50,135 bases of DNA from Ramlibacter sp. (GTDB taxonomy: Bacteria > Pseudomonadota > Gammaproteobacteria > Burkholderiales > Burkholderiaceae_C). The stretch's first letter is position 1; the number at the start of each line of letters is the position of its first letter. The position numbers were made by a program, and so were the translations under genes. The notes under the pieces were generated by a model, which had not been told where the DNA came from, searched no databases, and saw only the letters and a program-made list of their open reading frames with translations. The stretch lies in NCBI GenBank assembly GCA_028292245.1, contig JAQGMS010000028.1, positions 1 to 50,135 on the forward strand, read 5' to 3'. This document shows, piece by piece, positions 5,683 to 45,507 of this stretch.

Positions 5683-6482
5683 GCGAACCCACCGTCGCGC
5701 TGAAGTCACGCAACCAGCCCCAACATCACTCCGATGAGAGCCCGGCCCCACGCTCGTTCCGGCTGGCCTGGGCCCGCGCGCCGCACGAGCTGGCCGAGGC
5801 GCAGCGGCTGCGCCATCGCGTGTTTGCCGGCGAGATGGGCGCGCGCCTGCGAGTGCCGCCGGGCGCGCCCGCGGGCCACGACATCGACGCCTTCGACCCC
5901 TTCTGCGAGCACCTGCTGGTGCGCGCCATCGGCACGGCGCAGCACGACCAGGTGATCGCCACCTGCCGGATCCTTTCGCCGGACGGGGCGCGCCGCGCCG
6001 GCAGTTGCTACACCGACAGCGAGTTCGACCTCACGCCCGTGCGCGGCCTGCTGCCTCGGGCGCTGGAGATGGGCCGCGTGTGCGTGGACGCTGCGTGGCG
6101 CAACGGGCTGGTCGTCATGGCGATCTGGCAGGAACTGGGCCAGCAGCTGGTGCAGAGGGGGCTCGACACCGTCATCGGCTGCTCCAGCGTCAGCCTGTCG
6201 GATGGCGGCGAACTCGCCTTCAGGATGTGGCACGACCTCAAGCCGGTCTACCTGTTGCCGCCGATTCACCAGGTGCGGCCGTGGACGCCGCTGCAATTGA
6301 TGCCCGTGGGCGCAGACGAGCCCGTTCGCGTTCCGGCCTTGATCAAGGGCTACCTCCGGTGCGGCGGGAAACTGATCGGCCCGCCGGCACACGACGAGGA
6401 TTTCAACACGGCGGACTTCCCGATGATGCTGCGGCTGGCCGACATGCCCGCGCGCTACGGCAAGCGCATCATCGGCGCCTGA
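5673..6482 (+). CDS. OlsB-like N-acyltransferase (GNAT fold, PF13444-type)
   Basis: A 269-residue acyltransferase. The pattern AQRLRHRVFAGEMG, then DAFDPFCEHLLV, IATCRILSPDG, ALEMGRVCVDAAWRNG and IGCSSVSL, closing with LIKGYLRCGGKLIG and DFNTADFPMML, follows ornithine-lipid synthase OlsB and related acyl-ACP-dependent N-acyltransferases. These transfer a 3-hydroxyacyl or acyl chain from ACP to an amine. The ATG at 5673 overlaps the DUF1989 stop by 10 bases. No OlsA partner is adjacent, so classical ornithine lipid synthesis is not proven. In this operon it may acylate the amine or guanidine product of the two upstream enzymes (inference). Confidence 0.85.
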   Translation: MQLSEPTVALKSRNQPQHHSDESPAPRSFRLAWARAPHELAEAQRLRHRVFAGEMGARLRVPPGAPAGHDIDAFDPFCEHLLVRAIGTAQHDQVIATCRILSPDGARRAGSCYTDSEFDLTPVRGLLPRALEMGRVCVDAAWRNGLVVMAIWQELGQQLVQRGLDTVIGCSSVSLSDGGELAFRMWHDLKPVYLLPPIHQVRPWTPLQLMPVGADEPVRVPALIKGYLRCGGKLIGPPAHDEDFNTADFPMMLRLADMPARYGKRIIGA

Positions 6483-6483
6483 C

Positions 6484-7530
6484 ATGGGGCCCGTGGGCCG
6501 GCTGGAACGCCTTCCAAAATGGCTGAACCTCGTGCCGATGGTCGCGCAATGGGCCTGGCTGTCCCTTCGCTACCGCTCCATCACCCTGCCCTCCTGCGCC
6601 AATCCCGCGATCGTCACCGGCGGAATGGTCGGCGAGGGCAAGCTCGAATACTTCGACGTCATGGGCCCCGCCGCGGCGAGCTTCGTGGCGGCCACGACGT
6701 CCGTGATCGCCCGGGGCGCCGCGTCGTTGCCCGAGGCGGAAGCCGCGATGGCGCTGGCGGGCCTTGCGTATCCGGTCGTGGTCAAGCCCGATCTCGGCTG
6801 GTGCGGCTTCGGCGTGCGCCGCATCGATGGCCGCGCCGAACTCTGTGCCTATCTCGACGCCTATCCGGCGGGAGAGCGCATCGTCATCCAGGAATGGCTG
6901 GACGATGCCGGCGAAGCGGGCATCTTCTACATGCGCCATCCGGCCCACGACAGCGGCCAGGTCATCGGGATATTGCTTCGCCACTACCCGCGCGTGGTCG
7001 GCGACGGCAGGCAAACGATCGCGCAGCTGATCGCAGCCGATCCGCGCGCCAGCCGGCTCGGCCGCGACGGCGCCAGCGAACCCTGCTGCGACCCTGGCCA
7101 CGTGCCTGCGGCGGGCCACACCGTCCGCATCGCGACCGTGGGATCGACCCGCGTGGGTGGCATGTACGAAGACGGCAGCACCTCCATCACACCGGAGCTG
7201 ACGGCGGCCATCGATGCGATCGCCAAGGACATGAAGGATTTCTACGTGGGCCGCTTCGACGTCAAGTATTCAAACATCGCCGCGCTGGCTGCCGGCACGG
7301 GGTTCAAGATCATGGAGGTCAACGGCGCGGGTTCGGAAGCGGTGCATGCATGGGACCCGTCGCTCACGCTGCGGCAGGCCTATGCGATCGTGTTTGCCAA
7401 GCAGCGCCGGCTCTTCGCGATCGGGGACGAAATGCGCAGGCGCGGCCATGCGCCCGTGGGGTGGCTTGCACTGGCCCGCCACCACCTGCGGCAGCAGGCC
7501 CTCATCAAGAGGTATCCGCGTTCGAATTGA
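6484..7530 (+). CDS. ATP-grasp ligase of unassigned substrate
   Basis: A 348-residue protein starting 1 base after the acyltransferase stop. It has ATP-grasp features: a lysine/glycine-rich nucleotide site at YPVVVKPDLGWCGFGVR, the IVIQEWL strand, and the metal-binding C-terminal part GRFDVKYSN with FKIMEVNGAGSEA, where the E and N of MEVNG would bind magnesium. This superfamily joins a carboxylate (as acyl phosphate) to an amine, as in D-Ala-D-Ala ligase and cyanophycin-type enzymes. The N-terminus has a short hydrophobic stretch (LVPMVAQWAWLSL) that may sit on the membrane, fitting a lipid-like substrate made by the OlsB-like neighbour. It ends inside the convergent UPF0104 gene (26-base overlap). 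Confidence 0.85.
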   Translation: MGPVGRLERLPKWLNLVPMVAQWAWLSLRYRSITLPSCANPAIVTGGMVGEGKLEYFDVMGPAAASFVAATTSVIARGAASLPEAEAAMALAGLAYPVVVKPDLGWCGFGVRRIDGRAELCAYLDAYPAGERIVIQEWLDDAGEAGIFYMRHPAHDSGQVIGILLRHYPRVVGDGRQTIAQLIAADPRASRLGRDGASEPCCDPGHVPAAGHTVRIATVGSTRVGGMYEDGSTSITPELTAAIDAIAKDMKDFYVGRFDVKYSNIAALAAGTGFKIMEVNGAGSEAVHAWDPSLTLRQAYAIVFAKQRRLFAIGDEMRRRGHAPVGWLALARHHLRQQALIKRYPRSN

Positions 7531-28976: not shown

Positions 28977-28984
28977 TCGATCAG
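28973..28984. other. 12-base palindrome containing both convergent stop codons
   Basis: CTGATCGATCAG is a perfect palindrome in the 4-base gap between the two protease genes; the TGA stop of each lies in one half. It is too short and loop-free to be a terminator and may simply be a consequence of the mirrored gene ends. Confidence 0.5.
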
Positions 28985-30366
28985 CCCAGGGGCTCGTAGG
29001 CCAGGCCGCTGCCGGCCAGCCCCGCAAGGCCGATGTTTTCCGCGTTGGGTTGCGCCTCGGCGGCGAACACTCCCAGCGCCGATTGCGAATACTGGCCCGA
29101 TTGCAGCAACCCCACGTAATAGTTGCTTGCGTTGGTTGACGGGCTCTCACCGATCACGTTGGTATAGAGCAGGTCCACCACCGCTGCGTCGGACGGCTGG
29201 GCGCCCAGCCGCGCCTGCAGCGCCAGTTGCACCAGTGCGCCGTAGCTCATGCCGTGATCCAGGTCCCACAGGCCGATGCCCGCATAGTCCGGGTGCGCGC
29301 TCACCGTGCCGGCACCAAAGACCGCGCCGATGATCTTCGCGGCGATGCCTGCGTTGCCGCCCACATCCAGCGCGAGGCCGCCGTCGGCGAACTTCAGGCG
29401 TTCGATCGAAAGCAACCTGTCGGCGCCGTCGCGACCACCGGTGTTGTCCGAGATCGTGAAGGCCGAGTCCGCGAAACCCAGGCTGTATCCGGCGCGCGCA
29501 CCGCTGTAGCCCGCGCTGTCGAGGCCATCGCCGCCGTCGAGCGTGTCGTTGCCGCCCGCGCCCGTCAGCGTGTCGTCGCCCGCACCGGCCGTGACGATGT
29601 TGTCCAGCGCGTCGCCCAACAACAGGTCCGCGCCGGCGGTGCCAGTGATCGCCGACTGCTGGTTGCCCGGCATCAGGCTGTCATTGGCCGCGGTCACGCC
29701 GGCCAGCCAATCCCAGGTGCCCGCGCCGAACAGGGCTGCATAGGTCGACTCGGTGGCGTTGCCGCTGGACAGCACACCGGCGACAAAGGCTTGCCCGTTC
29801 GAGATGTAGAACAGCGGGCCGCCCGAGCCGCCGGGGCCCAGTGACGAACCGACGTCGTACACCCCGTACAGCGCCGAAGCGTCGGCGAAGATCGCTTCGG
29901 ACATCATGCCGACGCCGGCGCCGGGCGGCGTATGCACCGGAAAGCCGGCCGTGGTGCCGGCGAAATCTTCGGGCCGCTGCGCTGCCTGCAACCAGCCGGA
30001 CGCGGCGCCGATCCGGCTGTGCAGGCCGATGACGGCCAGGTCGTTCTGGGCCTCGTCGTCGGTCAGCAAGCCATCGCCGTTGGGGTCCCAGCTGGGGGTG
30101 CGGCCGTCCAGGCTCGCGTGGTCATCGGTGAATGTGCCGAAAGGCGCCTCGAAGGGCGAAGTGTCGGCACCGGGCGTGACGCTCACGCTGGTGGCCCAGC
30201 CGCCATAGTCCGGCTGGAACACCATGTGCATGGCCGTCAGCACGTCGTTGGGGCCGATGACCGTGCCCGAACCGCGCAGCGTGATGCCGCCTGCGAAGGT
30301 GGTCGTGATGTAGCAGACGGCGCTGTAAGGCGCGGTGCTGCGTTCAGCGGCGGTGACTTCCTGCAT
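28981..30366 (-). CDS. secreted trypsin-fold serine protease with RTX repeats and shared export module
   Basis: A 461-residue protease with no Sec signal. The chymotrypsin-fold triad is visible: H47 in VLTAMHMVF, D109 in QNDLAVIGL and S181 in GPGGSGGPLFY. A perfect EF-hand-type calcium loop (DPNGDGLLTDDE, residues 94-105) lies just before the catalytic aspartate. Residues about 245-280 hold RTX-type repeats (GTAGADLLLG, GAGDDTLTG, GGNDTLDGG), and residues about 278-461 form the module shared with the M10 protease. It is the last gene of the type I secretion run, 15 bases after the TolC-like gene, so it is the prime substrate of that exporter. Calcium would fold it only after export. Confidence 0.9.
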   Translation of the reverse strand: MQEVTAAERSTAPYSAVCYITTTFAGGITLRGSGTVIGPNDVLTAMHMVFQPDYGGWATSVSVTPGADTSPFEAPFGTFTDDHASLDGRTPSWDPNGDGLLTDDEAQNDLAVIGLHSRIGAASGWLQAAQRPEDFAGTTAGFPVHTPPGAGVGMMSEAIFADASALYGVYDVGSSLGPGGSGGPLFYISNGQAFVAGVLSSGNATESTYAALFGAGTWDWLAGVTAANDSLMPGNQQSAITGTAGADLLLGDALDNIVTAGAGDDTLTGAGGNDTLDGGDGLDSAGYSGARAGYSLGFADSAFTISDNTGGRDGADRLLSIERLKFADGGLALDVGGNAGIAAKIIGAVFGAGTVSAHPDYAGIGLWDLDHGMSYGALVQLALQARLGAQPSDAAVVDLLYTNVIGESPSTNASNYYVGLLQSGQYSQSALGVFAAEAQPNAENIGLAGLAGSGLAYEPLG

Positions 30367-30381: not shown

Positions 30382-31806
30382 CTAGGGCTTGAGCCACCCG
30401 TTCACTTCGGCGATGGCATCGCTGTCGGCCTCGCCGGCCAGCGCGCGCAAGCGGATGCGCGAGATCATGTAGGTGTAGCGCGCGTTGGCGAGATCGCGCT
30501 GCGCGCTGACCCGCTGCTCTTCCGCGTTGAGGATGTCCACCAGCGTGCGATTGCCGCCTTCGAACGAGCGGCGGTTGGACAGCACCATGACTTCGCTCGA
30601 CCGCACCGCCTGCTCCAGCGCGCGCACCCGGAGCACGCCTTCGGTGATGCCGCGGAACTCCTTTTCCACCCGCATTCCGAGGTCGCGCCGCGTGGCTTCC
30701 AGCGCCTGTTCCGCGCGCTCGAGGTCGGCCACGGCCTGGCGGGTCTGCGAATTGACGTAGCCGCCGGCGAAGATCGGCACGTTCAGCTGCAGGCCGATGG
30801 CCCGGTTGTCGTAGCGCGAGTTGATGCGGGTAACGTTGTCGCTGTCGCTGATGGACCATTGGGCGACCGCGTCCAGCGTGGGCAGGTGCCCCGCGCGGGC
30901 CTTGTCGACCTCGCGCCGCGCGGCTTCGCGCTGGGCCCGCAGGGAAATCAGTTCCGGGCTGCTCAACTCGGCGCGGTCGGTCCAGTCTTCCAGCCGGCCG
31001 GGCGTGGGGCCCGACAGCTGCAGCCGGGTCTCGTCGACCGGCGCCAGGCGCGTGACGGGCACGTTCACCATCACCTGCAATTGCCGCCGCGTGTATTCCA
31101 CGTTCTGGCGAGCCTCGAGTTCCTGCGCCACCGCCATGTCCAGCCTTGCCTGGGCCTCGTCGATGTCGGTGCGCACGCCAGCCCCGCCGGAGAATCGCTT
31201 CTTCGCGGCATCGACCTGGGTCGTGTAGGCCGCCTTTTGCGCGATCACGAGCGTGAGCTGGTCCTGCGCAAGCAGGCCTTCCAGGTAGGCCCCGGCCACG
31301 CGCACCGCGACGTTCTGGGTTTCCTTCTCCAGCACCGCGTTGGCGTCGGCCACCTGCGCCTTGGCCTGCTGGTAGTCGGCGATCTGGTAGGGACGGAAGA
31401 TCGGCTGGCGGATGGTCAGCGACTTGCTGCTGCTGTTGTAGTGCTCGTCCCCGTTCACCGGCCCGGCGAATCCCGGCGTGGTGCTGAACAGGTGGTTTTT
31501 GTTGCGCGATACGCTAGCCGAAACGTTGGGCAGCAATTGGGACAGGGCTTGCGGCAGCCGTTCGCGGCGTGCGTCGGCGGCGGCCCGGGCGGTGCGGATC
31601 ACCGCGTCCTGCTCCAGCGCTGCCTGGTAGGCCTGCGACAGCGTCAGCGGCCCGGCCGCCGCGATCGCCGCGGCAGTCGTGGCGGGCGCCGCCGTCTGGG
31701 CCCAGGCCGGGGCGATTGCGAGAATCGAACCAGCCGCGATCATGCAAGCCGTCGCAACGCGCACGAGACGCAGGCGCCGGGGGCGCGCGGATTTCGATGA
31801 ATTCAT
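30382..31806 (-). CDS. TolC-family outer-membrane channel of a type I secretion system
   Basis: A 474-residue outer-membrane factor with a signal peptide (residues 1-36, cut after AWA). The mature protein begins with an alanine-rich linker, then LTLSQAYQAALEQDAVIRTA, and has two long coiled-coil repeats typical of TolC (for example QVADANAVLEKETQNVAVRV and DLERAEQALEATRRDL). NRRSFEGGNRTLVDILNAEE is the conserved C-terminal repeat signature. It starts 4 bases after the HlyD-like gene stop. The channel spans periplasm and outer membrane for export of the adjacent proteases. Confidence 0.93.
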   Translation of the reverse strand: MNSSKSARPRRLRLVRVATACMIAAGSILAIAPAWAQTAAPATTAAAIAAAGPLTLSQAYQAALEQDAVIRTARAAADARRERLPQALSQLLPNVSASVSRNKNHLFSTTPGFAGPVNGDEHYNSSSKSLTIRQPIFRPYQIADYQQAKAQVADANAVLEKETQNVAVRVAGAYLEGLLAQDQLTLVIAQKAAYTTQVDAAKKRFSGGAGVRTDIDEAQARLDMAVAQELEARQNVEYTRRQLQVMVNVPVTRLAPVDETRLQLSGPTPGRLEDWTDRAELSSPELISLRAQREAARREVDKARAGHLPTLDAVAQWSISDSDNVTRINSRYDNRAIGLQLNVPIFAGGYVNSQTRQAVADLERAEQALEATRRDLGMRVEKEFRGITEGVLRVRALEQAVRSSEVMVLSNRRSFEGGNRTLVDILNAEEQRVSAQRDLANARYTYMISRIRLRALAGEADSDAIAEVNGWLKP

Positions 31807-31810
31807 CGGA

Positions 31811-33190
31811 TCATTCCTCTTTCATGGCGGCCGCGAGCCGCTTGGTCAGCGGGTGCAGCAGGTAAGACAGCAACGAGCGCTCGCCGGTCTTGAGCACGAC
31901 TTCGACCGGCATGCCCGGCTGCAGCACCCGCTTGCCCAGCCTCTTGTAGCCTTCGGGGGTCACCTGGACGCGGGCCAGATAGTACTGGGCGTTGGTTTGC
32001 GGCTCTGTCAGCAAATCGCCCGAAATGGAAACGATCTTCCCATCGACCACCAGCTGCGGCGAGTTGGAGAAGTTGTTGAAGCGCACGTCCACCGGCAAGT
32101 CGGGATGGATGCGGTCGATCAGGTTCGGCGGCACCTTGGTTTCCAGCATCAGCAGTTCGTTGTCCGGCACGATGTCCATCAGCTTCTGGCCGGTCTGGAT
32201 CACCCCGCCCACGGTCTGCACCGTCAGGCCCACCACTTGGCCGGTGGCGGGTGACTTGATGTCGATGCGGCCCAGGTCGTCCGCGTACGCACGAAACTTG
32301 CCCTCGTCCGACTGCACGTCACGGGTGGTGTCGGCCAACTGGGTTTCCACGTCCTTGCGATAGGCCTGCTGCAGGGAGATCATCTTCTGCCGCAGCTCGC
32401 CGACGCTGCGCTGGGCGCGCGTGATGTTGCCCAGCAGCTCGGCGACGGAGCCATTGCTTTCCGCCATCATCCGCTCGAGTTCGAGCTGGCGGTTGCGCGG
32501 CGCATAGCCCTCGCGCACCAGTTCCCGCGTGCTGGCCAATTCGTCGTTCACCAGCTTCATCTGTTCGCGGCGATTGGTCATCATTCCCTGGTAGGCCTGG
32601 ATCAGGCCCTGCTGGCCCGCGATGCTCTCCTGCAGGCCCTGCAGGTCGGCCTGCAGCGACGACTTGCGCGAACGGAACAGCTGGTCCTGCGTCAGGATCT
32701 GGCTCTGGATCAGCGGGTCCTTGCTGGCGCTCTGCAAATCGGGATGGAATGCGATCGCGTTGGCGCCCGTTTGCTCGGCAACCAGCCGCCCCTGCGCGGC
32801 GCGCAGGCCCAGGTAGTGCTGGCGGATCGCCTCGAAGTTGGCGCGCGCGGCGGCCTCGTCGAGCTTGATCAGCAGCTGGCCTTCCTTGACGCGGTCGCCT
32901 TCGCGCACCAGCACTTCCTTGACGATGCCGCCGGTGGGGTGCTGCACCGCCTTGCGCTTGGTGTCGATCGCCACTTGCCCCTGGCTGGGAACGCCCTCGT
33001 CCAGCGGCGCGAACGACGCCCACAGCACGAAGCCGCCCAGGCCGAGGCCCAGGGCCCACAGGCCGATGCGCGCGGCGCGGCTCGACTCGTTGGCCGCGGC
33101 CATGTCGGGATCGGGCGCAACCTGCGCGGGTGCCGGTGCCGGCGGCAGAAGTTTGGAGGAAAGCAGTTTGAGGAGTTCGGGTTTGGCCAT
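31811..33190 (-). CDS. HlyD-family periplasmic adaptor of a type I secretion system
   Basis: A 459-residue membrane fusion protein. It has an N-terminal cytoplasmic tail rich in proline and alanine, one TM helix at about residues 40-60 (IGLWALGLGLGGFVLWASFA), and the lipoyl/biotinyl half-motif GGIVKEVLVREGDRVKEGQL. Long helical hairpins follow, then the C-terminal beta-barrel with GLTVQTVGGVIQTGQKLMDI. The end GMPVEVVLKTGERSLLSYLL matches PrtE/LipC-type adaptors. Its neighbours on either side are the ABC exporter and TolC-like genes. Confidence 0.94.
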   Translation of the reverse strand: MAKPELLKLLSSKLLPPAPAPAQVAPDPDMAAANESSRAARIGLWALGLGLGGFVLWASFAPLDEGVPSQGQVAIDTKRKAVQHPTGGIVKEVLVREGDRVKEGQLLIKLDEAAARANFEAIRQHYLGLRAAQGRLVAEQTGANAIAFHPDLQSASKDPLIQSQILTQDQLFRSRKSSLQADLQGLQESIAGQQGLIQAYQGMMTNRREQMKLVNDELASTRELVREGYAPRNRQLELERMMAESNGSVAELLGNITRAQRSVGELRQKMISLQQAYRKDVETQLADTTRDVQSDEGKFRAYADDLGRIDIKSPATGQVVGLTVQTVGGVIQTGQKLMDIVPDNELLMLETKVPPNLIDRIHPDLPVDVRFNNFSNSPQLVVDGKIVSISGDLLTEPQTNAQYYLARVQVTPEGYKRLGKRVLQPGMPVEVVLKTGERSLLSYLLHPLTKRLAAAMKEE

Positions 33191-33232: not shown

Positions 33233-34969
33233 TCACGCCGGCTGGGCCGGACCCAGCGCGGGGTTCGGCGGTTCTTTGCGGGCGGGGGCGGGGCGAAGGC
33301 TGGCCAGCACGGACTCGCGCGGGCCGTCGGCCTTGATGCGCCCGTCTTGCAGCAGCAATATCCGGTCGGCCACTGCGATGGCGCCGGCGCGATGCGTAAT
33401 CAGGAATACCGTCTTGCCCAGGGCCTTGAGTTGCTGCACGGTCTTGACCAGTGCCGCTTCGCCGGCGTCGTCCAGGTTGGCGTTGGGCTCGTCCAGCACC
33501 AGCAGGGCCGGGTCGCCATAGACGGCACGCGCCAGGCCGATGCGCTGGCGCTGGCCGCCCGACAGCAGGTTGCCGGCCTCGCCGATCGGCGTGTCGTAGC
33601 CTTTCGGGAAGCGCAGGATCATCTCGTGCAGGCCGGCGCTGCGCGCGGCGGCGATCACCTTCTCGGAGTCGATCTCGCCGAACCGCGCGATGTTCTCACC
33701 GATCGTGCCTTCGAACAGCTCGATGTCCTGCGGCAGGTAGCCCAGGTGCGGGCCGAGTTCCATGCGGTTCCATCCGGCGATCGGCAGGCCGTCGATCAGG
33801 ACTTCGCCGGACACGTCGGGCCAGATGCCCACCATCACGCGCGCCAAGGTCGATTTGCCCGAACCGGACGGGCCCATGATGGCGGTGACGGTGCCGGCCT
33901 GCGCCGAGAAGCTCACGCCCTTGAGGATGGGCTCGGCGCGGCCGGGGGCGCTGGCGACGACGTCGCGCAGCGTCATCTCGCCGTGAGGCGCGACCCGGCT
34001 CAGGTTGGGATCGCGCTCGGGATACTCGGCCAGCAGGTGCTCCAGACGCTCGAACGCGGCGCGGGTCACGATGTAGCTGCGCCACACGGTGACGAGCTGG
34101 TCGATCGGCGCCAGGGCGCGGTTCATCAACAGGTTGGCGGCGATCATCGCGCCGGGACTCAACTCGCCTTCGATCACCAGCAGCGCGCCGGTGGCCAGCG
34201 ACAGCGACTGCTGGCTGTAGCGGATGAACTTGCTCCAGGCCATCACGCGGCTGCTGACGTGGTGGGCATGCAGGCTCTGGATCAGGTACACGCCCTGCCA
34301 GACGCGCCAGCGCTTGCGCAGGCTGCCCAGCATGCCCATCGATTCGATCACCTCGGAATTGCGCAGTTTGCTTTGCAGGTAGGCGTTGACGTCGCTGTTG
34401 GCCCGGGCCGCGTCTTCCGAAGGCTCGACCGTCTGGCGGTGGCCGAACCAGGCAAGGCTGCCCTGGAAGATAGCGAATACCAGCGCGACCACGCCCAGCA
34501 ACGGGTGCAGGAAGAAGGTCACCGCGATGTAGATCGGCGCCCAGGGCGCGTCGAAGAACGCGAAGATGCCGGTGCCGGTGATGAACTGCCGCAGCGTGAT
34601 CAGGTCGCCGAACGCCCGGGACGGGCTGGCGCTGGACTGGCTCAGGTAGGACTCGAAGCTGGCGTTGAAGACGCGCGTGCTCAGGTGCTCGTCGAACCGC
34701 ATGCCGGCGCGCACCAGGACGCGTGATCGCAGCCATTCGGAAAACGCCATCACGCCGAACAGGAACAGCGTGATCATCGACACGGCCAGCAAGGTGAGCT
34801 CACTCTGGCTGCGCATGACGCGGTCGAAGATCTGCATCATGTAGATGGTGGGCGCCAGCATCAGCAGGTTGGCCACCATGCTGAAGAGGCCGACGAGCAG
34901 GAACTCGCGCCGGAACGCCCAGAGCGCGGCCGTCAATTCGCTGCGCTTGAAGAAGTCAGGTGTATTCAT
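33233..34969 (-). CDS. type I secretion ABC transporter, permease-ATPase fusion (PrtD type), copy 1
   Basis: A 578-residue exporter. The membrane part has about six helices (residues 15-300). The ATPase part has Walker A GPSGSGKSTLARV, signature LSGGQRQRIGLARA, Walker B LLVLDEPNANLDD and the H-loop ITHRAG, all intact. There is no N-terminal C39 peptidase domain, so substrates are not cleaved, as for serralysin exporters. It lies 18 bases after the second ABC gene and 42 before the HlyD-like gene. Confidence 0.95.
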   Translation of the reverse strand: MNTPDFFKRSELTAALWAFRREFLLVGLFSMVANLLMLAPTIYMMQIFDRVMRSQSELTLLAVSMITLFLFGVMAFSEWLRSRVLVRAGMRFDEHLSTRVFNASFESYLSQSSASPSRAFGDLITLRQFITGTGIFAFFDAPWAPIYIAVTFFLHPLLGVVALVFAIFQGSLAWFGHRQTVEPSEDAARANSDVNAYLQSKLRNSEVIESMGMLGSLRKRWRVWQGVYLIQSLHAHHVSSRVMAWSKFIRYSQQSLSLATGALLVIEGELSPGAMIAANLLMNRALAPIDQLVTVWRSYIVTRAAFERLEHLLAEYPERDPNLSRVAPHGEMTLRDVVASAPGRAEPILKGVSFSAQAGTVTAIMGPSGSGKSTLARVMVGIWPDVSGEVLIDGLPIAGWNRMELGPHLGYLPQDIELFEGTIGENIARFGEIDSEKVIAAARSAGLHEMILRFPKGYDTPIGEAGNLLSGGQRQRIGLARAVYGDPALLVLDEPNANLDDAGEAALVKTVQQLKALGKTVFLITHRAGAIAVADRILLLQDGRIKADGPRESVLASLRPAPARKEPPNPALGPAQPA

Positions 34970-34987: not shown

Positions 34988-36739
34988 TCAGGTCGTGGCA
35001 ACCGCTTGCGAGCCCGCCGCGGCCTGGCGCTGCTGCGCCGTTTGCTGAGCCTGCGCCATGGCCTTGGCCAGCGCGGCCAGCACCTCGTCGCGCGGGCCGA
35101 ACGCCTGCACCTGCCCGTCGCGCAGCACCAGCATCTTGTCCGCCACCGCCAGGATGCTGGTGCGGTGCGTCATCACGATGAAGGTGGTGCCGCGCGCCTT
35201 GAGCTGCTGCACGGCGGCGGCGAGCGCGGCATCACCGGCGTCGTCCAGGCTCGAATTGGGTTCGTCCAGCACCACGAACACCGGGTCGCCGTAGATCGCG
35301 CGGGCCAGTCCGACGCGCTGGCGCTGGCCGCCCGAGAGCATCGCGCCTTCGCGGCCCACGGGGCTGTCGTAGCCCTGCGGCAGCGCCAGGATGAATTCAT
35401 GCAGGCCCACGGCCTGGGCCGCGGCGTGCACCTTCGCGGTTTCCACTTCGCCGAAGCGGGCGATGTTTTCCGCCAGCGTGCCGTCGAACAGCTCGACGTC
35501 CTGGGGCAGGTAGCCCACGTTGGGGCCGAGCTCGGCCTTGTCCCAGGCGAAGACGTCCGCCCCATCCAGCCGCACCTTGCCGCTGGCGGCCGGCCACAGG
35601 CCGGTGAGCACGCGCGCCAAGGTGGTCTTGCCGGAAGCGGAAGGCCCGACCACAGCGAGCACCTCGCCCGGCTGCAGCCCGAAGGCGACGCCCCGCAGGA
35701 TGGCCGAGCCGCTGCCGGGAGCGGCGGCGACCACGTTCTCGGCTTGTACGAAGCCCTTGGGTGCCGGCAACGGCATGGACTTGGCGCCGGCGGGCACCGC
35801 AGCCAGCAGCTGGTCGAGCCGGGACCACGCGTCACGCACCGCCACGGCGCCGCGCCACTGTGCGACGATCATCACCAGCGGCTGGAGAACGCGCGCGCCG
35901 AGCAGCGACGCGATGATCATCATCGAGCCACCGCCGTTCAATTGGTTGTGCAGCAGCAGCCAGGCCGCCAGGCCCAGCAGCCCCGAGCTCATCGTGGTCT
36001 GCAGGAACTTGGTAACGGCCTGGTAGCCGCCGGCGCGGTCCGAGGCCAGGGCCTGCAGCCGCAGGAATTCGCGCTGCTTGTCCATCCAGCGGCGGTGGAT
36101 GTCGCGCTGCATGCCCATCGACTCGATCACCTGCGCGTTGCGCAGCGTGCCGTCGGCGTACACCTGGGCGCCGATGGCGCTGCGGTTGGCGGCCACCAGG
36201 GGCGGCTGCGTGGAACGTTCGTTGAGCAGGCCGACGAAAGTCTGGACGATGGCGCCGACCACTGCCACCCAGCCGAGCACCGGGCTGATCGCGAACAGCA
36301 GCACCAGGAACACCAGCGCGACGGGCGCTTCCATCAGCGCGAGCACCACCGGCGAGTACAGGAAATCGCGCAGCGTGCGGAAGTCGTTCATGGCCTGCGG
36401 CGTGCCACCCTGCTGGCGGCGCAAGTTGGCTGTGAACATGGCGGAAAAGATGCGGTCGCCCAGCTGCCGGTCCAGTTCCAGCCCGGCCGCGTGCAGGATG
36501 TGCGAGCGAGCCCACTCCAGCAGCTCCATCACGGCATAGGCGCCCAGCACCAGCAGCAGCAGCATGAACAAGGTGAAATGGCTGCGGCTGGTGACCACAC
36601 GGTCGTAGACCTCCAGCATGAAGCCGGTGGGCGCGAGCACCAGCAGGCTCGCCACCAGGCTGTACCAGAAGGCCCGCTTGAAATAAGGCCGCAGCAAGGC
36701 CACGGCCTGGGCGAGTTCGGAAGATTGGGGAGATTTCAT
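34988..36739 (-). CDS. type I secretion ABC transporter, permease-ATPase fusion (PrtD type), copy 2
   Basis: A 583-residue protein of the same layout as its neighbour: six helices in the N-terminal half, then Walker A GPSASGKTTLARV, signature LSGGQRQRVGLARA, Walker B VFVVLDEPNSSLDD and H-loop MTHRTS. Since both copies keep all catalytic motifs, they could form a heterodimer or two exporters sharing one adaptor and channel. Its ATG overlaps the stop of the TnpB-like gene by 4 bases (ATGA), so translation of the exporter is coupled to that protein. Confidence 0.95.
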   Translation of the reverse strand: MKSPQSSELAQAVALLRPYFKRAFWYSLVASLLVLAPTGFMLEVYDRVVTSRSHFTLFMLLLLVLGAYAVMELLEWARSHILHAAGLELDRQLGDRIFSAMFTANLRRQQGGTPQAMNDFRTLRDFLYSPVVLALMEAPVALVFLVLLFAISPVLGWVAVVGAIVQTFVGLLNERSTQPPLVAANRSAIGAQVYADGTLRNAQVIESMGMQRDIHRRWMDKQREFLRLQALASDRAGGYQAVTKFLQTTMSSGLLGLAAWLLLHNQLNGGGSMMIIASLLGARVLQPLVMIVAQWRGAVAVRDAWSRLDQLLAAVPAGAKSMPLPAPKGFVQAENVVAAAPGSGSAILRGVAFGLQPGEVLAVVGPSASGKTTLARVLTGLWPAASGKVRLDGADVFAWDKAELGPNVGYLPQDVELFDGTLAENIARFGEVETAKVHAAAQAVGLHEFILALPQGYDSPVGREGAMLSGGQRQRVGLARAIYGDPVFVVLDEPNSSLDDAGDAALAAAVQQLKARGTTFIVMTHRTSILAVADKMLVLRDGQVQAFGPRDEVLAALAKAMAQAQQTAQQRQAAAGSQAVATT

Positions 36740-37350
36740 GCGCCAGCCTCCAGCTGAACATAGGTGGGGATGTCGCCCCGGTGGCGCGGCAAGTCGGCGG
36801 CCTTGACGGCGGCCACGTCCTCTTGCGCTTCATTGAAACTGAACAGCAGCTCGAACACCTGGTCGGGCCGGCGCAACAGGACGATCTCGCGCAGCTTGTG
36901 CTCGTGGAAGCGCACTTCGTCCTTTTTTGCCAAACGTATTTCATACAGCATGCGGCCTCCCAAGGTGTAGATCGACAACACACCGGCCTTGAGGCTCAAC
37001 GTGTGCCGGTCGAAATAGACGGGACTGTTGTCGGCGAAGCGCAGCAATGGCAATTTGGCGCCTTCCAGCTTGGCGTGATGATAAGGACTCTGGGGGTGCT
37101 GGAACACGATCCGGCTGGTGCGCGAAACCGAATAAATCGCATTGCAGATCATCTGCGAGCCCACTGCCGGGAATTGCTCGCGCAGGGATTTGTAGGCCAG
37201 ATGGTGCAGCGTGACCCGGTTCCAGCATCGATGTTGCTGGACCAGCGGAGCGAGTGCGTTACAGACCTGGGCGAAGGAGATTTGCAAGGCCCGCAACCGT
37301 TCGTTCTGCTCCGGAGAAATATTGAGGGCGATCCGCAAGGAGCTATTCAT
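36736..37350 (-). CDS. TnpB-like N-terminal domain protein without RuvC nuclease, heading the export genes
   Basis: A 204-residue protein not assigned by any standard export family. Residues about 15-85 (ALQISFAQVCNALAPLVQQH, TLHHLAYKSLREQFPAVGSQ, then NAIYSVSRT) follow the helical N-terminal part of IS605 OrfB/TnpB. Residues about 100-145 (LPLLRFADNSPVYFDRHTLS and SIYTLGGRMLYEIRL) follow the beta-rich WED-like part, where TnpB proteins have a similar F...V.YD.R...F and TL.GR pattern. A full TnpB is about 370-420 residues with a RuvC nuclease and zinc finger; none of that is present and no remnant follows, because the next gene overlaps the stop. It therefore looks domesticated, not decayed. 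A nucleic-acid-binding or regulatory role is inferred. The recognition is by eye, with no profile search. Confidence 0.6.
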   Translation of the reverse strand: MNSSLRIALNISPEQNERLRALQISFAQVCNALAPLVQQHRCWNRVTLHHLAYKSLREQFPAVGSQMICNAIYSVSRTSRIVFQHPQSPYHHAKLEGAKLPLLRFADNSPVYFDRHTLSLKAGVLSIYTLGGRMLYEIRLAKKDEVRFHEHKLREIVLLRRPDQVFELLFSFNEAQEDVAAVKAADLPRHRGDIPTYVQLEAGA

Positions 37351-37378
37351 ATAGGAGATTCTACACTCCTATATGAAT
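37345..37378. promoter_or_regulatory. perfect 13-bp inverted repeat covering the TnpB-like start codon
   Basis: Arms ATTCATATAGGAG (37345-37357) and CTCCTATATGAAT (37366-37378) match perfectly around the 8-base spacer ATTCTACA. The ATG (37350-37348, minus strand) is within one arm. In the DNA this is a strong operator candidate. In an RNA starting upstream it would hide the start codon and the GGAG in a hairpin. No second copy was seen in the window. Confidence 0.8.
37358..37363 (-). promoter_or_regulatory. candidate -10 element (TAGAAT) for the export operon
   Basis: On the minus strand TAGAAT (5 of 6 bases of the consensus TATAAT) lies in the spacer of the inverted repeat, 7 bases before the ATG. 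The -35 region 17 bases further up (TTCGTA) is weak. If used, transcription would begin at or next to the ATG, giving a leaderless message with the palindrome straddling the promoter. This is a prediction only. Confidence 0.35.
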
Positions 37379-42094: not shown

Positions 42095-43586
42095 CTTTTT
42101 CAAATTTGATACGAAGCTGCGCGGCCATCTCGGACCGCATCACCTTGCCGCCGGTGTTCTTGGGCAAGGTGGGGGCGAAGATCATTTGCCCGGGTACGAG
42201 CGAAGTGCCCAGCCGCTCGCGGCACAGCTTTTGCAGCTCGTCCTTTTCAACGGGCGCGGTCGCTACCACGACCGCCACCAGCATCCGCAAGAGCGAGCCT
42301 TCCGCCTGCAATGCAACTACAACCGATTCGAGCACTGCCGGGTGCGAATTGATGACCTGCTCGATCTGCACGGGATCGATCTTTCGCCCGCCGATGTTGA
42401 TCAGGTGGTCCACCCGCCCCGCGAGTGTCAGGTAGCCGGCGCTGTCGACAGACCCCAGGTCGCCGGAGTAATTCCAGCCGTTGCGAAACATTCGCGCATT
42501 GGCCTCGTCGTCCTGGAGGTAGCCCGCCACCAGGGTCGGGCATTTGAATCTCAGGACGCCGGCCTGTCCCGCCGGCAACGGCTGGTCTTGCTCGTCCACC
42601 GCCTCGGCCTGGACCCACATGTGAACCCGGCCCGCCGACTCGGGCCGAACCGACAATGTTTCGTTGTTGGCCAGTGCAAGCGGTCCGGCCTCGGACGAGC
42701 CGTAGTTGATCTCGATGCGCGGGCATATGCGTGTGACGATGCCCTTGCGCAATGACGGCGAGACGCTCGCGCCTGCCACCGTAATCACCTGCACGCTCGA
42801 ACACATGGCCAGGCTTTGCGGCAAAGCCTGGGCCGCATGCGTCACCAGTTCTGCCGCCACACCGGTGGTCGTCACCACCCGCGTGGGCTGATCCCGTTGT
42901 ATGACGTCGAAAACATGCCCGAGCTTCACCGAGCTGGTGAGCACGATGCCGGAGCCGGACAACAATGGCCTCATTGCGTTGCCGATGCCCATCGAAATCG
43001 AGAGATCGGCCAGTACCAGCACCCGCTGCTCGCCATCATTCATGGCCCGCCCGAGGCCGTGGGACACGATCGCGCGCTCGTGCGTCTGGGGAATGCTCTT
43101 GGGGACACCCGTGGTTCCCGATGACAAGGTGATCAGCCAGGGCTCGTTGTCCACATCCTGCGGCACCGGCGCGGGGGACAGATCATGGTCCTGCGCCGAG
43201 CGCTTCAAGAGCTCGTTCACGTCCAGATAGGCATTCGATTCAAGGACGTCGGTGCGCCAGGCATCGCCGTGGTCCTGGATCACCCACCGTATGCCGTTGC
43301 GAGCCAACAGGGTCTGCTTCATCGGCTCGGGCCGGTCGGTCTTGAAGGGCGTCGCCACGGCGCCCATGCGGGCGATGGCCAGGATCATGAGCAGATAGGC
43401 CAACGGGCTTTTCACCGAAATCGCGACCACGTCGCCGCGCCGCACGCCCGCCCGGGCCAGCTTGGCGGAGCCGAGGTCCGCTATCCCGCACAGCACACCG
43501 TAGCTCATGGGTCGGCCGTCGTAGATCACTGCCACCCTGTCGGGGAATCCGTGGCTGTTGCGCCAGATGCCTTCGGTGATGTTCAT
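42081..43586 (-). CDS. class I adenylate-forming enzyme (acyl-CoA ligase/ANL superfamily)
   Basis: A 501-residue enzyme that would activate a carboxylate as an acyl-AMP and perhaps transfer it to CoA or a carrier. The phosphate loop LSSGTTGVPK is at 154-163, NYGSSEAGPLAL is the A5 motif, YSGDLGSVDSAGYLTLAGRV the A7/A8 motif, and LPKNTGGKVMRSE has the A10 lysine. No carrier-protein domain is fused. Its ATG overlaps the stop of the sulfotransferase B gene as ATGA. The substrate is unknown; in this setting it could activate an acid decorating the surface glycan or lipid. Confidence 0.9.
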   Translation of the reverse strand: MNITEGIWRNSHGFPDRVAVIYDGRPMSYGVLCGIADLGSAKLARAGVRRGDVVAISVKSPLAYLLMILAIARMGAVATPFKTDRPEPMKQTLLARNGIRWVIQDHGDAWRTDVLESNAYLDVNELLKRSAQDHDLSPAPVPQDVDNEPWLITLSSGTTGVPKSIPQTHERAIVSHGLGRAMNDGEQRVLVLADLSISMGIGNAMRPLLSGSGIVLTSSVKLGHVFDVIQRDQPTRVVTTTGVAAELVTHAAQALPQSLAMCSSVQVITVAGASVSPSLRKGIVTRICPRIEINYGSSEAGPLALANNETLSVRPESAGRVHMWVQAEAVDEQDQPLPAGQAGVLRFKCPTLVAGYLQDDEANARMFRNGWNYSGDLGSVDSAGYLTLAGRVDHLINIGGRKIDPVQIEQVINSHPAVLESVVVALQAEGSLLRMLVAVVVATAPVEKDELQKLCRERLGTSLVPGQMIFAPTLPKNTGGKVMRSEMAAQLRIKFEKDAQT

Positions 43587-44575
43587 GTCGGCTCCTCGTT
43601 CACAGGCTTTGCCTGGGCCGGCGACGCACCGTCGGCTTCCTTGGCAAAGAGCGCGTCCAGTCCGTGACGCTGCAATGTTTCCGGAAAGGTTCCCGCATAT
43701 TGCTCGATCGTGAGCTTCGCAGGCACGCCATTGGCGCCGAGGATGGATGCGTTGACGCCCGGGTCTCGCCACGAAGTGTTCTCGCGCGGGAGCACCCGCA
43801 GGCTGGCCGGAATCTCCCCCGTTTTCAAGCCCAGCAGCGAGTCGACGACATGGGCCGACTCCACCAAATCACGATAGTGGGTTACCACAGCTCCGGGGCA
43901 CAGCGCCTGAAAGTGACGCCGCACCGTCTCATGCATGCACAGGAAAATCCGGGAGGCGCTTGGCTTGCGCTCGTAGATTTCCATCTGCGTGACGATGTAC
44001 TCGTCGAACGACAAGGGTTCAACGGCGCGACGATGACGAAACTCCATCGCCTTGTAGTACGAGGCCCTCAGGAACCCCAACGGGTCGCGCAAGACGATGC
44101 TCAGTGAAACAGATTCCAGGAACCCCATGGCGTGCCACTGCTCCAGCGGAACGTCGTCGCCGCGCCTTGGATTGGCCACCAGTCCCGAAACGCTTTCCAC
44201 CAGCGACTCGTCCGAGTACAGCACCGGCTTGTCGCCCAGGGCATTGGCCGTGGCCTCAAGACATCGAGCCGCCAAGCGCGCGATATTCATGCGCGCCTTG
44301 CTGCCATCCGTCGCCGGGTCCTGGCTATAGGCCTTCAGCAACATGATGAGCGAAGGCATGACCATGCGCAGGGATCCCATCGCCTGCGGGTCTCCCGCGT
44401 GGTAGCGCTTGCTCGCATCCATGATCATTTGATGCGGCTTGAACTCGCCTGGGATGAACGAGTTGTCGGCGTTCTTTCCGAGATAGTGGACGTTCCGCAG
44501 ATTCGGGAACACCGCCTTTTGCAAGATCGTGGTGCCGGTCCGCGGCGCTCCTGCGTGAATGAATATTCTTGTCAT
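43583..44575 (-). CDS. PAPS-dependent sulfotransferase-like protein B
   Basis: A 330-residue protein. The phosphosulfate loop HAGAPRTGTTILQK lies at residues 7-20 right after the start, and IVLRDPLGFLRASYY (R163 and S172) matches the 3'-phosphate binding motif of PAPS sulfotransferases. It has no signal peptide, so it would act in the cytoplasm. It is a close paralogue of the next gene upstream, with which it shares the C-terminal YAGTF...RHGLDALFA pattern. It overlaps the neighbours on both sides by 4 bases (ATGA). The acceptor is not known; a nucleotide- or lipid-linked glycan is inferred from the glycan genes around it. Confidence 0.78.
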   Translation of the reverse strand: MTRIFIHAGAPRTGTTILQKAVFPNLRNVHYLGKNADNSFIPGEFKPHQMIMDASKRYHAGDPQAMGSLRMVMPSLIMLLKAYSQDPATDGSKARMNIARLAARCLEATANALGDKPVLYSDESLVESVSGLVANPRRGDDVPLEQWHAMGFLESVSLSIVLRDPLGFLRASYYKAMEFRHRRAVEPLSFDEYIVTQMEIYERKPSASRIFLCMHETVRRHFQALCPGAVVTHYRDLVESAHVVDSLLGLKTGEIPASLRVLPRENTSWRDPGVNASILGANGVPAKLTIEQYAGTFPETLQRHGLDALFAKEADGASPAQAKPVNEEPT

Positions 44576-45507
44576 TGCGCGTCTGCGGCAAACATCCGGT
44601 CCAAACCGCGGCGCGCCAATACATCCGCAAACGTGCCCGCATACTGTTGAATGGTCATGCCGGGGGCGACACCGTCGGCTTGAAGAATGAAGTCGTTGGT
44701 CTTGGGCTGCCGCCAGGACTGGTTGTCGCGCGGCAAGTCGGCCAGGCACACCGGCACCTCGCCGGTTTCGATGCCCAGCAATGTATCCAGTGCATGCGCG
44801 GAACCTGCAAGCTCCCGGTACGTCGTCAACACCGTGGCCGGGCACAAGCTCCTGAAGTGCGCCGAAGCGGCGCGATGCATGCCCAGGAAAATGCGGGATG
44901 CGCTCGGCTTGCGTTCGTAGATGGCGAGCTGGCGGCGGATATATTCATCGAACGAGAACGGCGCGCCGCCATAACCCTGCTGGAATTCCATCGCCTTGTA
45001 GTACGAGGCTTGCAGGAACTCCGCGGGCTCCCGCAGGACCACGCTCAGCGATGCGTGTTCCAGGAAGCCGACGTCGTGAAGCTGTTCGAGCGCGACGTCG
45101 TCGCCGAACGCCAATTCACCCCGCAGGCCGGACATGCTTTCCGTCAACGATTCATCCGAATAGAGCACGGGCAGGGGCCCCAGCCGCTCCGCGGCCATCT
45201 GGACACAACCAGCCCAGAGGGCGGCCAACTCACGCCGCTCGCCGCCCTGGTCCCGGTTCTGGTTCTTCAGCACCTTCAGCATCGACGGGAGCAACGCACG
45301 CACGGTCTGTATCCCGGCCGGGTCGCCTGCAAGGTGCCGGTCGCATGCGTCCGCCAGGACCTTCCTGGGATCGAATTTCCCCGCGAGCGGCTGGTTGTCC
45401 GCATTCTTGCCGATGTAGTGAAGCTTCTCCATGCGCGGGAAAACTTCCTTTTGCAGGACCGTTGTCGCGGTCCGTGGAAGCCCTGCATGGACGAAAACCT
45501 GGGTCAC
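44572..45507 (-). CDS. PAPS-dependent sulfotransferase-like protein A
   Basis: A 311-residue paralogue of protein B. The phosphosulfate loop is HAGLPRTATTVLQK (residues 7-20), with alanine where B has glycine, and the 3'-phosphate motif is VVLREPAEFLQASYY (R159 and S168). The middle shares LYSDESLTESMSG with B's LYSDESLVESVSG. It starts with GTG (45507) overlapping the TAG stop of the glycosyltransferase. Two copies side by side suggest gene duplication with division of acceptor or position. Confidence 0.78.
   Translation of the reverse strand: MTQVFVHAGLPRTATTVLQKEVFPRMEKLHYIGKNADNQPLAGKFDPRKVLADACDRHLAGDPAGIQTVRALLPSMLKVLKNQNRDQGGERRELAALWAGCVQMAAERLGPLPVLYSDESLTESMSGLRGELAFGDDVALEQLHDVGFLEHASLSVVLREPAEFLQASYYKAMEFQQGYGGAPFSFDEYIRRQLAIYERKPSASRIFLGMHRAASAHFRSLCPATVLTTYRELAGSAHALDTLLGIETGEVPVCLADLPRDNQSWRQPKTNDFILQADGVAPGMTIQQYAGTFADVLARRGLDRMFAADAQ

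Follow-up and report, generated by a model that had tools for sequence, protein, structure and literature searches.

What has become of a TnpB that lost its nuclease half and now stands at the head of a secretion operon? This question is raised by the gene NTB in a 50,135-nucleotide stretch of a Ramlibacter sp. genome (contig JAQGMS010000028.1), here called the window. TnpB is a gene-cutting enzyme and the ancestor of CRISPR-Cas12. NTB runs on the minus strand from a start at 37350 to a TGA stop at 36738-36736 and encodes 204 residues. An earlier interpretation made from the letters of the window (the sequence-only reading) had described it as a TnpB-like protein that may sense or control export genes, perhaps with a guide RNA or by binding a palindrome at its own start. 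Comparisons across related genomes establish the TnpB origin, the fold, the loss of the nuclease half, the single clade and the synteny of NTB. As for its function, we consider it rather probable, judging from conserved sites, that NTB is an autorepressor which reads sites containing the transposon-associated motif (TAM) at its own promoter and sets the level of the exporter, probably without a guide.

The predicted open reading frame (ORF) exists; its strand, which the sequence-only reading did not name, is the minus strand. Searches of Pfam, NCBIfam, PHROGs and PADLOC gave nothing above cut-off for NTB, and standard annotation is therefore blind to its likeness to TnpB. This likeness is seen in a Methylomarinovum transposase that matches NTB at 39.4% (tblastn, E 2e-24), and in the scores obtained with a hidden Markov model (HMM) of the NTB family: 137 bits for the Methylomarinovum TnpB, 93 bits for the TnpB of a seven-copy insertion sequence (IS) and 108-137 bits for phage TnpBs. 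The similarity, as measured by these scores, is far above chance. When NTB, its family, N-lobes from ten TnpBs and a Bacillus N-lobe were compared by sequence with the PDB, nothing beyond chance matches came back, so that a comparison of folds was required. The AlphaFold model (mean pLDDT 84.6, pTM 0.83) has helices at residues 13-40, 45-59 and 65-84 and strands within 102-172, in agreement with the helical part (about 15-85) and beta part (about 100-145) proposed beforehand. In Foldseek comparisons, the lobe type belongs to nucleic-acid-binding effectors (50 structures listed); in the 'viral' library the top matches were mostly TnpB-like transposases, with poor root-mean-square deviations. 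Family HMM and fold comparison thus both support an origin from the N-terminal part of TnpB.

Aligned with intact relatives, NTB ends where these start the motif G-V/I-D-V/I-G-E. Its end precedes GVDVGEN, and the RuvC catalytic domain (D-E-D) is absent, Pfam giving no match; the TNB/zinc ribbon (PF07282), scored at 67-89 bits in five relatives, has no match in NTB either. The claims that RuvC and zinc finger are missing, and that the whole nuclease half was lost, therefore stand. It should be added that the orthologues have in common a C-terminal tail resembling PEYVxVEE (PTYVQLEAGA in the window, 36739-36768, minus strand), preceded by a low-confidence linker; this tail, which is not present in TnpB, could be a docking or sensing element.

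NTB is present as a single copy in its own genome, and this, like its fixed gene neighbourhood, speaks against carriage by a mobile element. Among close genomes, 13 of 61 gave matches at E <= 0.001, twelve being NTB and one (G055) a TnpB. Family-wide, matches at the same threshold occurred in 43 of 399 genomes, including five weak or partial ones (G183, cut by a contig end, G121, G087, G282 and G253); the last four, together with a second match in G376, were set aside as weak partial matches, the G121 and G282 loci showing no adjoining exporter operon. The family search gave 45 places, of which 40 were retrieved, two are covered by the window and locus L004, and three weak matches were left out. 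Named carriers are Ramlibacter sp., metagenome-assembled genomes of Comamonadaceae and Burkholderiales, and two Tepidimonas. A class-wide profile search of 369 genomes returned NTB's own genome, a true relative in G751 and two weak partial matches; viral_contigs searched with NTB itself yielded no relative. When a phage TnpB served as the query across 398 genomes of the phylum, a single strong match, in G894, was obtained.

After removal of one duplicate and two weak records (L105 and L106) from 55, PrtDa was the next gene on the same strand after NTB in 51 of 52 distinct places. The operon is cut by a contig end in four of the 51 (L004, L068, L072 and L078); PrtDa-PrtDb-HlyD is intact in the remaining 47, with a TolC match as well in 46 (not L067). 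An ATGA-type overlap of stop and start was found at 39 of 50 loci, and in the window the TGA of NTB shares its ATGA with the ATG of PrtDa (36739-36737), just as had been described. The association with type I secretion is stable across the compared loci. It extends to G751, of a different family, where an NTB 41% identical lies ahead of PrtD, HlyD and TolC. In the tree, 50 NTBs fall on one side of a 100/100 branch (bootstrap not settled) and 16 TnpB rows, one duplicated, on the other, which fits a single origin.

The exception in synteny, L099, is a second NTB copy in G421 (~6357-6938, minus strand), 65% identical over residues 7-117, which lacks the exporter operon and is degenerate past about residue 117. 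This copy, and a length half that of TnpB, are what a decaying tnpB remnant or an assembly artefact would offer as well. Such an explanation is refuted by conservation, however, and we give it practically no credence: stop-free copies occur in 49 other loci at 47-68% identity, 35 columns are invariant among 51 rows, and the position in the operon is constant and the operator conserved. Of the two outcomes named in advance as contrary to the TnpB-derived family, neither was encountered; no search assigned the protein to some other family, nor do its homologues amount to 5' pieces of full tnpB genes, the degenerate second copy L099 aside.

The palindrome reported at the start of NTB is real and consists of two exact 11-bp arms of TTCATATAGGA, one of which, reading TCCTATATGAA on the gene strand, includes the start codon. 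The pattern TATAGGA-N8..20-TCCTATA occurs in one place in the 5.8-Mb assembly of the window, which is 85.6% complete. In a set of 50 loci, from which duplicates and L099 had been dropped, 45 have an exact TTCATATAGGA no more than 60 bp from the NTB start, and 34 have an inverted pair. When the start-codon arm is excluded, 48 of 50 loci hold an upstream half-site at two mismatches or fewer (41 exact), while in a control with one shuffle for each locus, 47 of the 50 showed at least three mismatches, two showed two and one showed none. Across these 48 upstream, non-coding sites, TCAT (bases 2-5) is retained in every one and A6, A8 and G10 are likewise invariant; base 9 varies most.

The half-site is, furthermore, close to private to NTB. 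Among 30 carrier genomes, 58 of 60 exact copies belong to NTB, and one carrier, G437, has none; 30 non-carrier genomes, some incomplete, contain one copy, and the reversed pattern gave 0 in carriers and 1 in non-carriers. The exact copies away from NTB in these 60 genomes are L136 (G273:C1:12019), L137 (G419:C14:15476) and L197 (G062:C15:403763), and those in G273 and G419 have no clear promoter role on inspection. This distribution bears on the possibility that NTB serves the exporter itself, as a functional component or in its assembly, while a different protein binds the palindrome. The tight coupling to PrtDa through the frequent ATGA-type overlap, and the conserved C-terminal tail foreign to TnpB, would suit such a role, but the site tracks NTB rather than the exporter, being absent in exact form from G026 and G028, two genomes of the same genus with a tandem PrtD pair and no NTB; moreover, in the 50 structures listed the retained lobe always belongs to an effector that binds nucleic acid. 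We hold the exporter-part explanation to be distinctly unlikely. The palindrome is the likely binding site of NTB itself, as had been suggested, with half-sites conserved at the orthologues.

An operator-like arrangement is present, by sequence, over NTB's own promoter. Between the arms lie predicted -10 boxes (TACAAT, TAGAAT, TACACT etc.) with a mean score of 6.0 vs 1.9 in shuffled sequence, and L086 and four loci of the same genus, with TTGACT or TTGACA as the -35, have the left arm inside the spacer between -35 and -10. The right arm includes the ATG, for which reason the NTB mRNA is predicted to be leaderless or nearly so. As RNA, the window's palindrome would also form a stable fold in which the ATG is buried (-26.9 kcal/mol, z -5.7), and a hairpin acted on by NTB or by the ribosome could govern translation. 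The left arm, however, precedes the conserved -10 box and would be untranscribed from that promoter, and some loci (L070, L005 and L103), with sites in direct orientation or just one site, cannot form a hairpin; the arms also conserve sequence, not merely pairing. On these grounds control by an RNA hairpin appears very improbable.

Under autorepression, NTB would be the WED-REC-WED recognition lobe of an IS605-type TnpB, separated from the nuclease half and retained at the head of a PrtD-PrtD-HlyD-TolC operon. It would most likely bind the 11-bp sites at its own promoter with the groove that reads the TAM in TnpB, here TTCAT. The upstream site immediately precedes the -10 box (falling between it and the -35 in loci with a clear -35), the other would cover the transcription start and the ATG, and bound NTB would block RNA polymerase. 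Since the exporter genes share the NTB message, binding would set the exporter level by negative feedback. Control of the export genes by NTB is therefore likely in our estimation. We infer that NTB binds the half-sites, that binding represses, where transcription starts and that a guide is absent.

The connection with the TAM comes from the insertion sites of related elements, as the TAM of ISDra2 is the insertion target of the element (PMC8612924). The NTB half-site starts with TTCAT. In G055, six of the seven IS copies have TTCAT directly before their left end (the left part of the other copy differs), as do two of the three copies in G883, where the remaining one reads N at that position; the left ends of the single copies in G878 and G822, placed by likeness, follow TTCAT too. 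Among phage elements, whose ends were placed by eye, TCAT was found at L155, L156, L158, L159, L160 and L164, and for L155, L156 and L164 the boundary is fixed, because these share the left end and differ in the flank. Left ends could not be read for L149, L161, L162 and the Methylomarinovum element, the tnpA of which is closely preceded by an IS4 transposase gene. At the distant G751 locus the TTCAT and ATGAA motifs persist, and the AGGA part has been lost. At the level of sequence, the half-sites are conserved and nearly exclusive to NTB, and their first five bases are the TAM of related elements. ISDra2 reads its TAM through Y52, S56, K76, F77, Q80, T123 and N124 (PMC10097598); NTB has invariant Y53, Q66 and N70, and we would guess that these are the equivalents.

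Sites over the start codon also occur in intact phage tnpB genes. Leaving aside two of 13 viral loci (L165, partial at 33%, and L166, a short piece), CCTATATGA lies over the start codon, behind a promoter-like stretch, in six of ten distinct phage loci, with the exact half-site at L149, L158 and L160 and one base off at L155, L156 and L159. L164 carries CATATATGA at its start codon, and the site is absent from L157, L161 and L162. Intact phage tnpB genes with no tnpA just upstream have CCTATATGA over the start at ~2980-3000 in L149, L151 and L152 and at ~1985-2005 in L155, L156 and L159. These sites hint at self-regulation by some TnpBs of the clade, and the element therefore appears to predate nuclease loss, though only in part of the TnpB kin. 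The broader proposition, that the WED-REC lobe alone is a guide-free sequence-specific repressor and that intact phage TnpBs of this clade already restrain their own leaderless promoter in the same manner, is tentative and somewhat doubtful; we lowered our estimate of it because the exact site occurs at three of ten phage starts, with a near form at four more, and at none in the bacterial IS relatives.

A very short guide is the remaining explanation to be weighed. NTB might resemble TldR, an RNA-guided repressor, and read TTCAT as the TAM, followed by ATAGGA as a 6-nt seed that pairs with a small RNA made at another locus. Silencing by TldR requires a seed consisting of guide nucleotides 1-6 (PMC13418256), and the 11-bp half-site could accordingly be 5 bp of TAM plus 6 of seed; independent, variably spaced sites would also suit a monomeric reader. 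Against this, ATAGGA outside the operator occurs three times and its complement 12 times in the 50 loci (-3 to +7.5 kb, as retrieved), with no fixed position, and no 8-mer between -400 and -45 is common to more than seven of the 50. There is no synonymous constraint at the 3' end of NTB or the start of PrtDa (47 and 46 loci), and nothing favours an RNA embedded in the operon, the highest excess being 0.20 at PrtDa codons 51-60; Rfam gave two matches only, both far under the gathering scores. The phage TnpBs have the site, yet their right flanks, the source of a guide, differ by eye. Furthermore, NTB has no RuvC, the domain by which much of the omegaRNA scaffold is held in TnpB (PMC10097598). 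The suggestion of a guide RNA thus found no support in a conserved upstream element or in any omegaRNA sign under the 3' end of the gene, the scaffold-gripping part being lost. A TldR-like mode is unlikely in our view, and NTB probably works without a guide RNA.

Several observations weigh against guide-free autorepression through the TAM. The exact half-site is missing in five of 50 loci, and L085 and L090 have no recognisable upstream half-site. Spacing between the arms varies from 10 to 25 bp (13-18 in 29 of the 34 inverted pairs), and copy number and orientation vary as well, with direct repeats, three sites or one in some loci, which appears unlike a rigid dimer operator. The -35 is weak, at most four of six matches in 42 of 50 loci (three in the window) and five or six in eight. 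More than a TAM must be read, because invariance extends beyond TCAT to A6, A8 and G10, and the TTCAT match is partly forced, as the start codon in one arm imposes CAT; by our reckoning the chance of the remaining match is about 1 in 16, or about 1 in 70 without that condition. TCAT is absent from the left end of one phage element, L157. The start-codon site is lacking in the IS relatives G055, G883, G878 and G822 and in the tnpA-linked L108, L162 and L167. The TAM residues of ISDra2 could not be mapped to NTB, no ISDra2 TnpB being found in the Deinococcus plasmid stretches examined. Finally, NTB is dispensable for export as such, because G026 and G028 have the PrtD pair in its absence.

Downstream of NTB, the window holds a complete PrtD-type secretion set (ABC permease/ATPase, HlyD and TolC), each above its NCBIfam cut-off (Table 1). 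PrtDa and PrtDb are 44% identical, and the tandem pair, present in nearly all carriers, suggests a heterodimeric exporter. A protein with trypsin-like, RTX and DUF4214 matches begins ~15 bp past TolC and is likely the cargo; kindred pieces lie near several orthologous operons. Elsewhere in the window (43583-45507, minus strand), two adjoining ORFs resemble tandem copies, both with HAGxPRTxTTxLQKxVFP, and look sulfotransferase-like by eye.

Table 1. Features of the NTB locus and its exporter operon in the window.
Feature	Coordinates	Strand	Basis
Putative operator half-site TTCATATAGGA, inverted partner, upstream of -10 box	37367..37377	-	sequence comparison
Putative -10 box TAGAAT between half-sites	37358..37363	-	predicted
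Putative operator half-site TTCATATAGGA (TCCTATATGAA on gene strand; includes ATG start codon)	37346..37356	+	sequence comparison
NTB, 204-aa stand-alone WED-REC-WED lobe of TnpB; first exporter-operon gene	36736..37350	-	profile, fold, orthologues
PrtDa, type I secretion permease/ATPase; ATG overlaps NTB stop	34988..36739	-	TIGR01842, 627.6 bits (cut-off 510.15)
PrtDb, second tandem type I secretion permease/ATPase	33233..34969	-	TIGR01842, 669.6 bits
HlyD-family periplasmic adaptor	31811..33190	-	TIGR01843, 363.6 bits
TolC-family outer membrane protein	30382..31806	-	TIGR01844, 317.5 bits
Possible cargo: trypsin-like domain, RTX repeat, DUF4214	28981..30366	-	PF00089, PF00353, PF13946, just above cut-offs

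If autorepression is true, NTB is a regulator, invisible to Pfam and NCBIfam, of the secretion operon of many Burkholderiales-type genomes. Under the broader and more doubtful proposition on intact phage TnpBs, Cas12-type proteins would hold a separable, guide-independent DNA-binding repressor, and domestication would have preserved an old autoregulation instead of inventing one. The locus opens the questions whether the lobe of Cas12-type proteins that reads the TAM or protospacer-adjacent motif can bind DNA alone, and whether some transposon TnpBs regulate themselves through a TAM-like site at the start codon. No description of the NTB family was found in the literature searched on TnpB/OrfB, TldR, Cas12 and type I secretion, though Wiegand 2024, the main work on TldR, and Altae-Tran 2023, on TnpB diversity, might mention truncated forms; the available parts of PMC11844463 and PMC10765051 have no bearing on it.

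The nearest relatives of NTB are IS200/IS605 TnpBs (OrfB) of the MGVDVGEN RuvC subfamily (Methylomarinovum WP_286294216.1; phage L149, L151, L152, L155 and L159). The N-terminal 170 residues align end to end, the fold class is the same, the TAM is (T)TCAT, and the start-codon site recurs at six of ten phage loci, three times as the exact half-site. Unlike these TnpBs, NTB has no RuvC/TNB half, belongs to a chromosomal operon, usually has two inverted sites and has gained a new C-terminal tail. The nearest published kind is TldR, as PMC13418256 describes it: both derive from TnpB, with the nuclease inactive in TldR and absent in NTB, so that no nuclease activity is expected, both are tied to non-transposon genes and both probably block promoters. 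TldR still binds guide RNA and DNA, its nuclease domain being present but inactivated (PMC13418256), whereas NTB has lost the whole domain, shows no guide in locus scans and has its site at its own promoter. A conserved family surviving in this form must rely on recognition of DNA (or RNA) by the REC lobe alone. Cas12f, Cas12k and Cas12m are full-length RNA-guided DNA-binding effectors, in contrast to NTB, which is without RuvC. Conventional autoregulators of transport operons have the same layout, with the repressor gene first, an operator over its own promoter and the exporter downstream; unlike them, NTB would bind DNA with a TnpB lobe and not with a helix-turn-helix of the TetR/MarR type.
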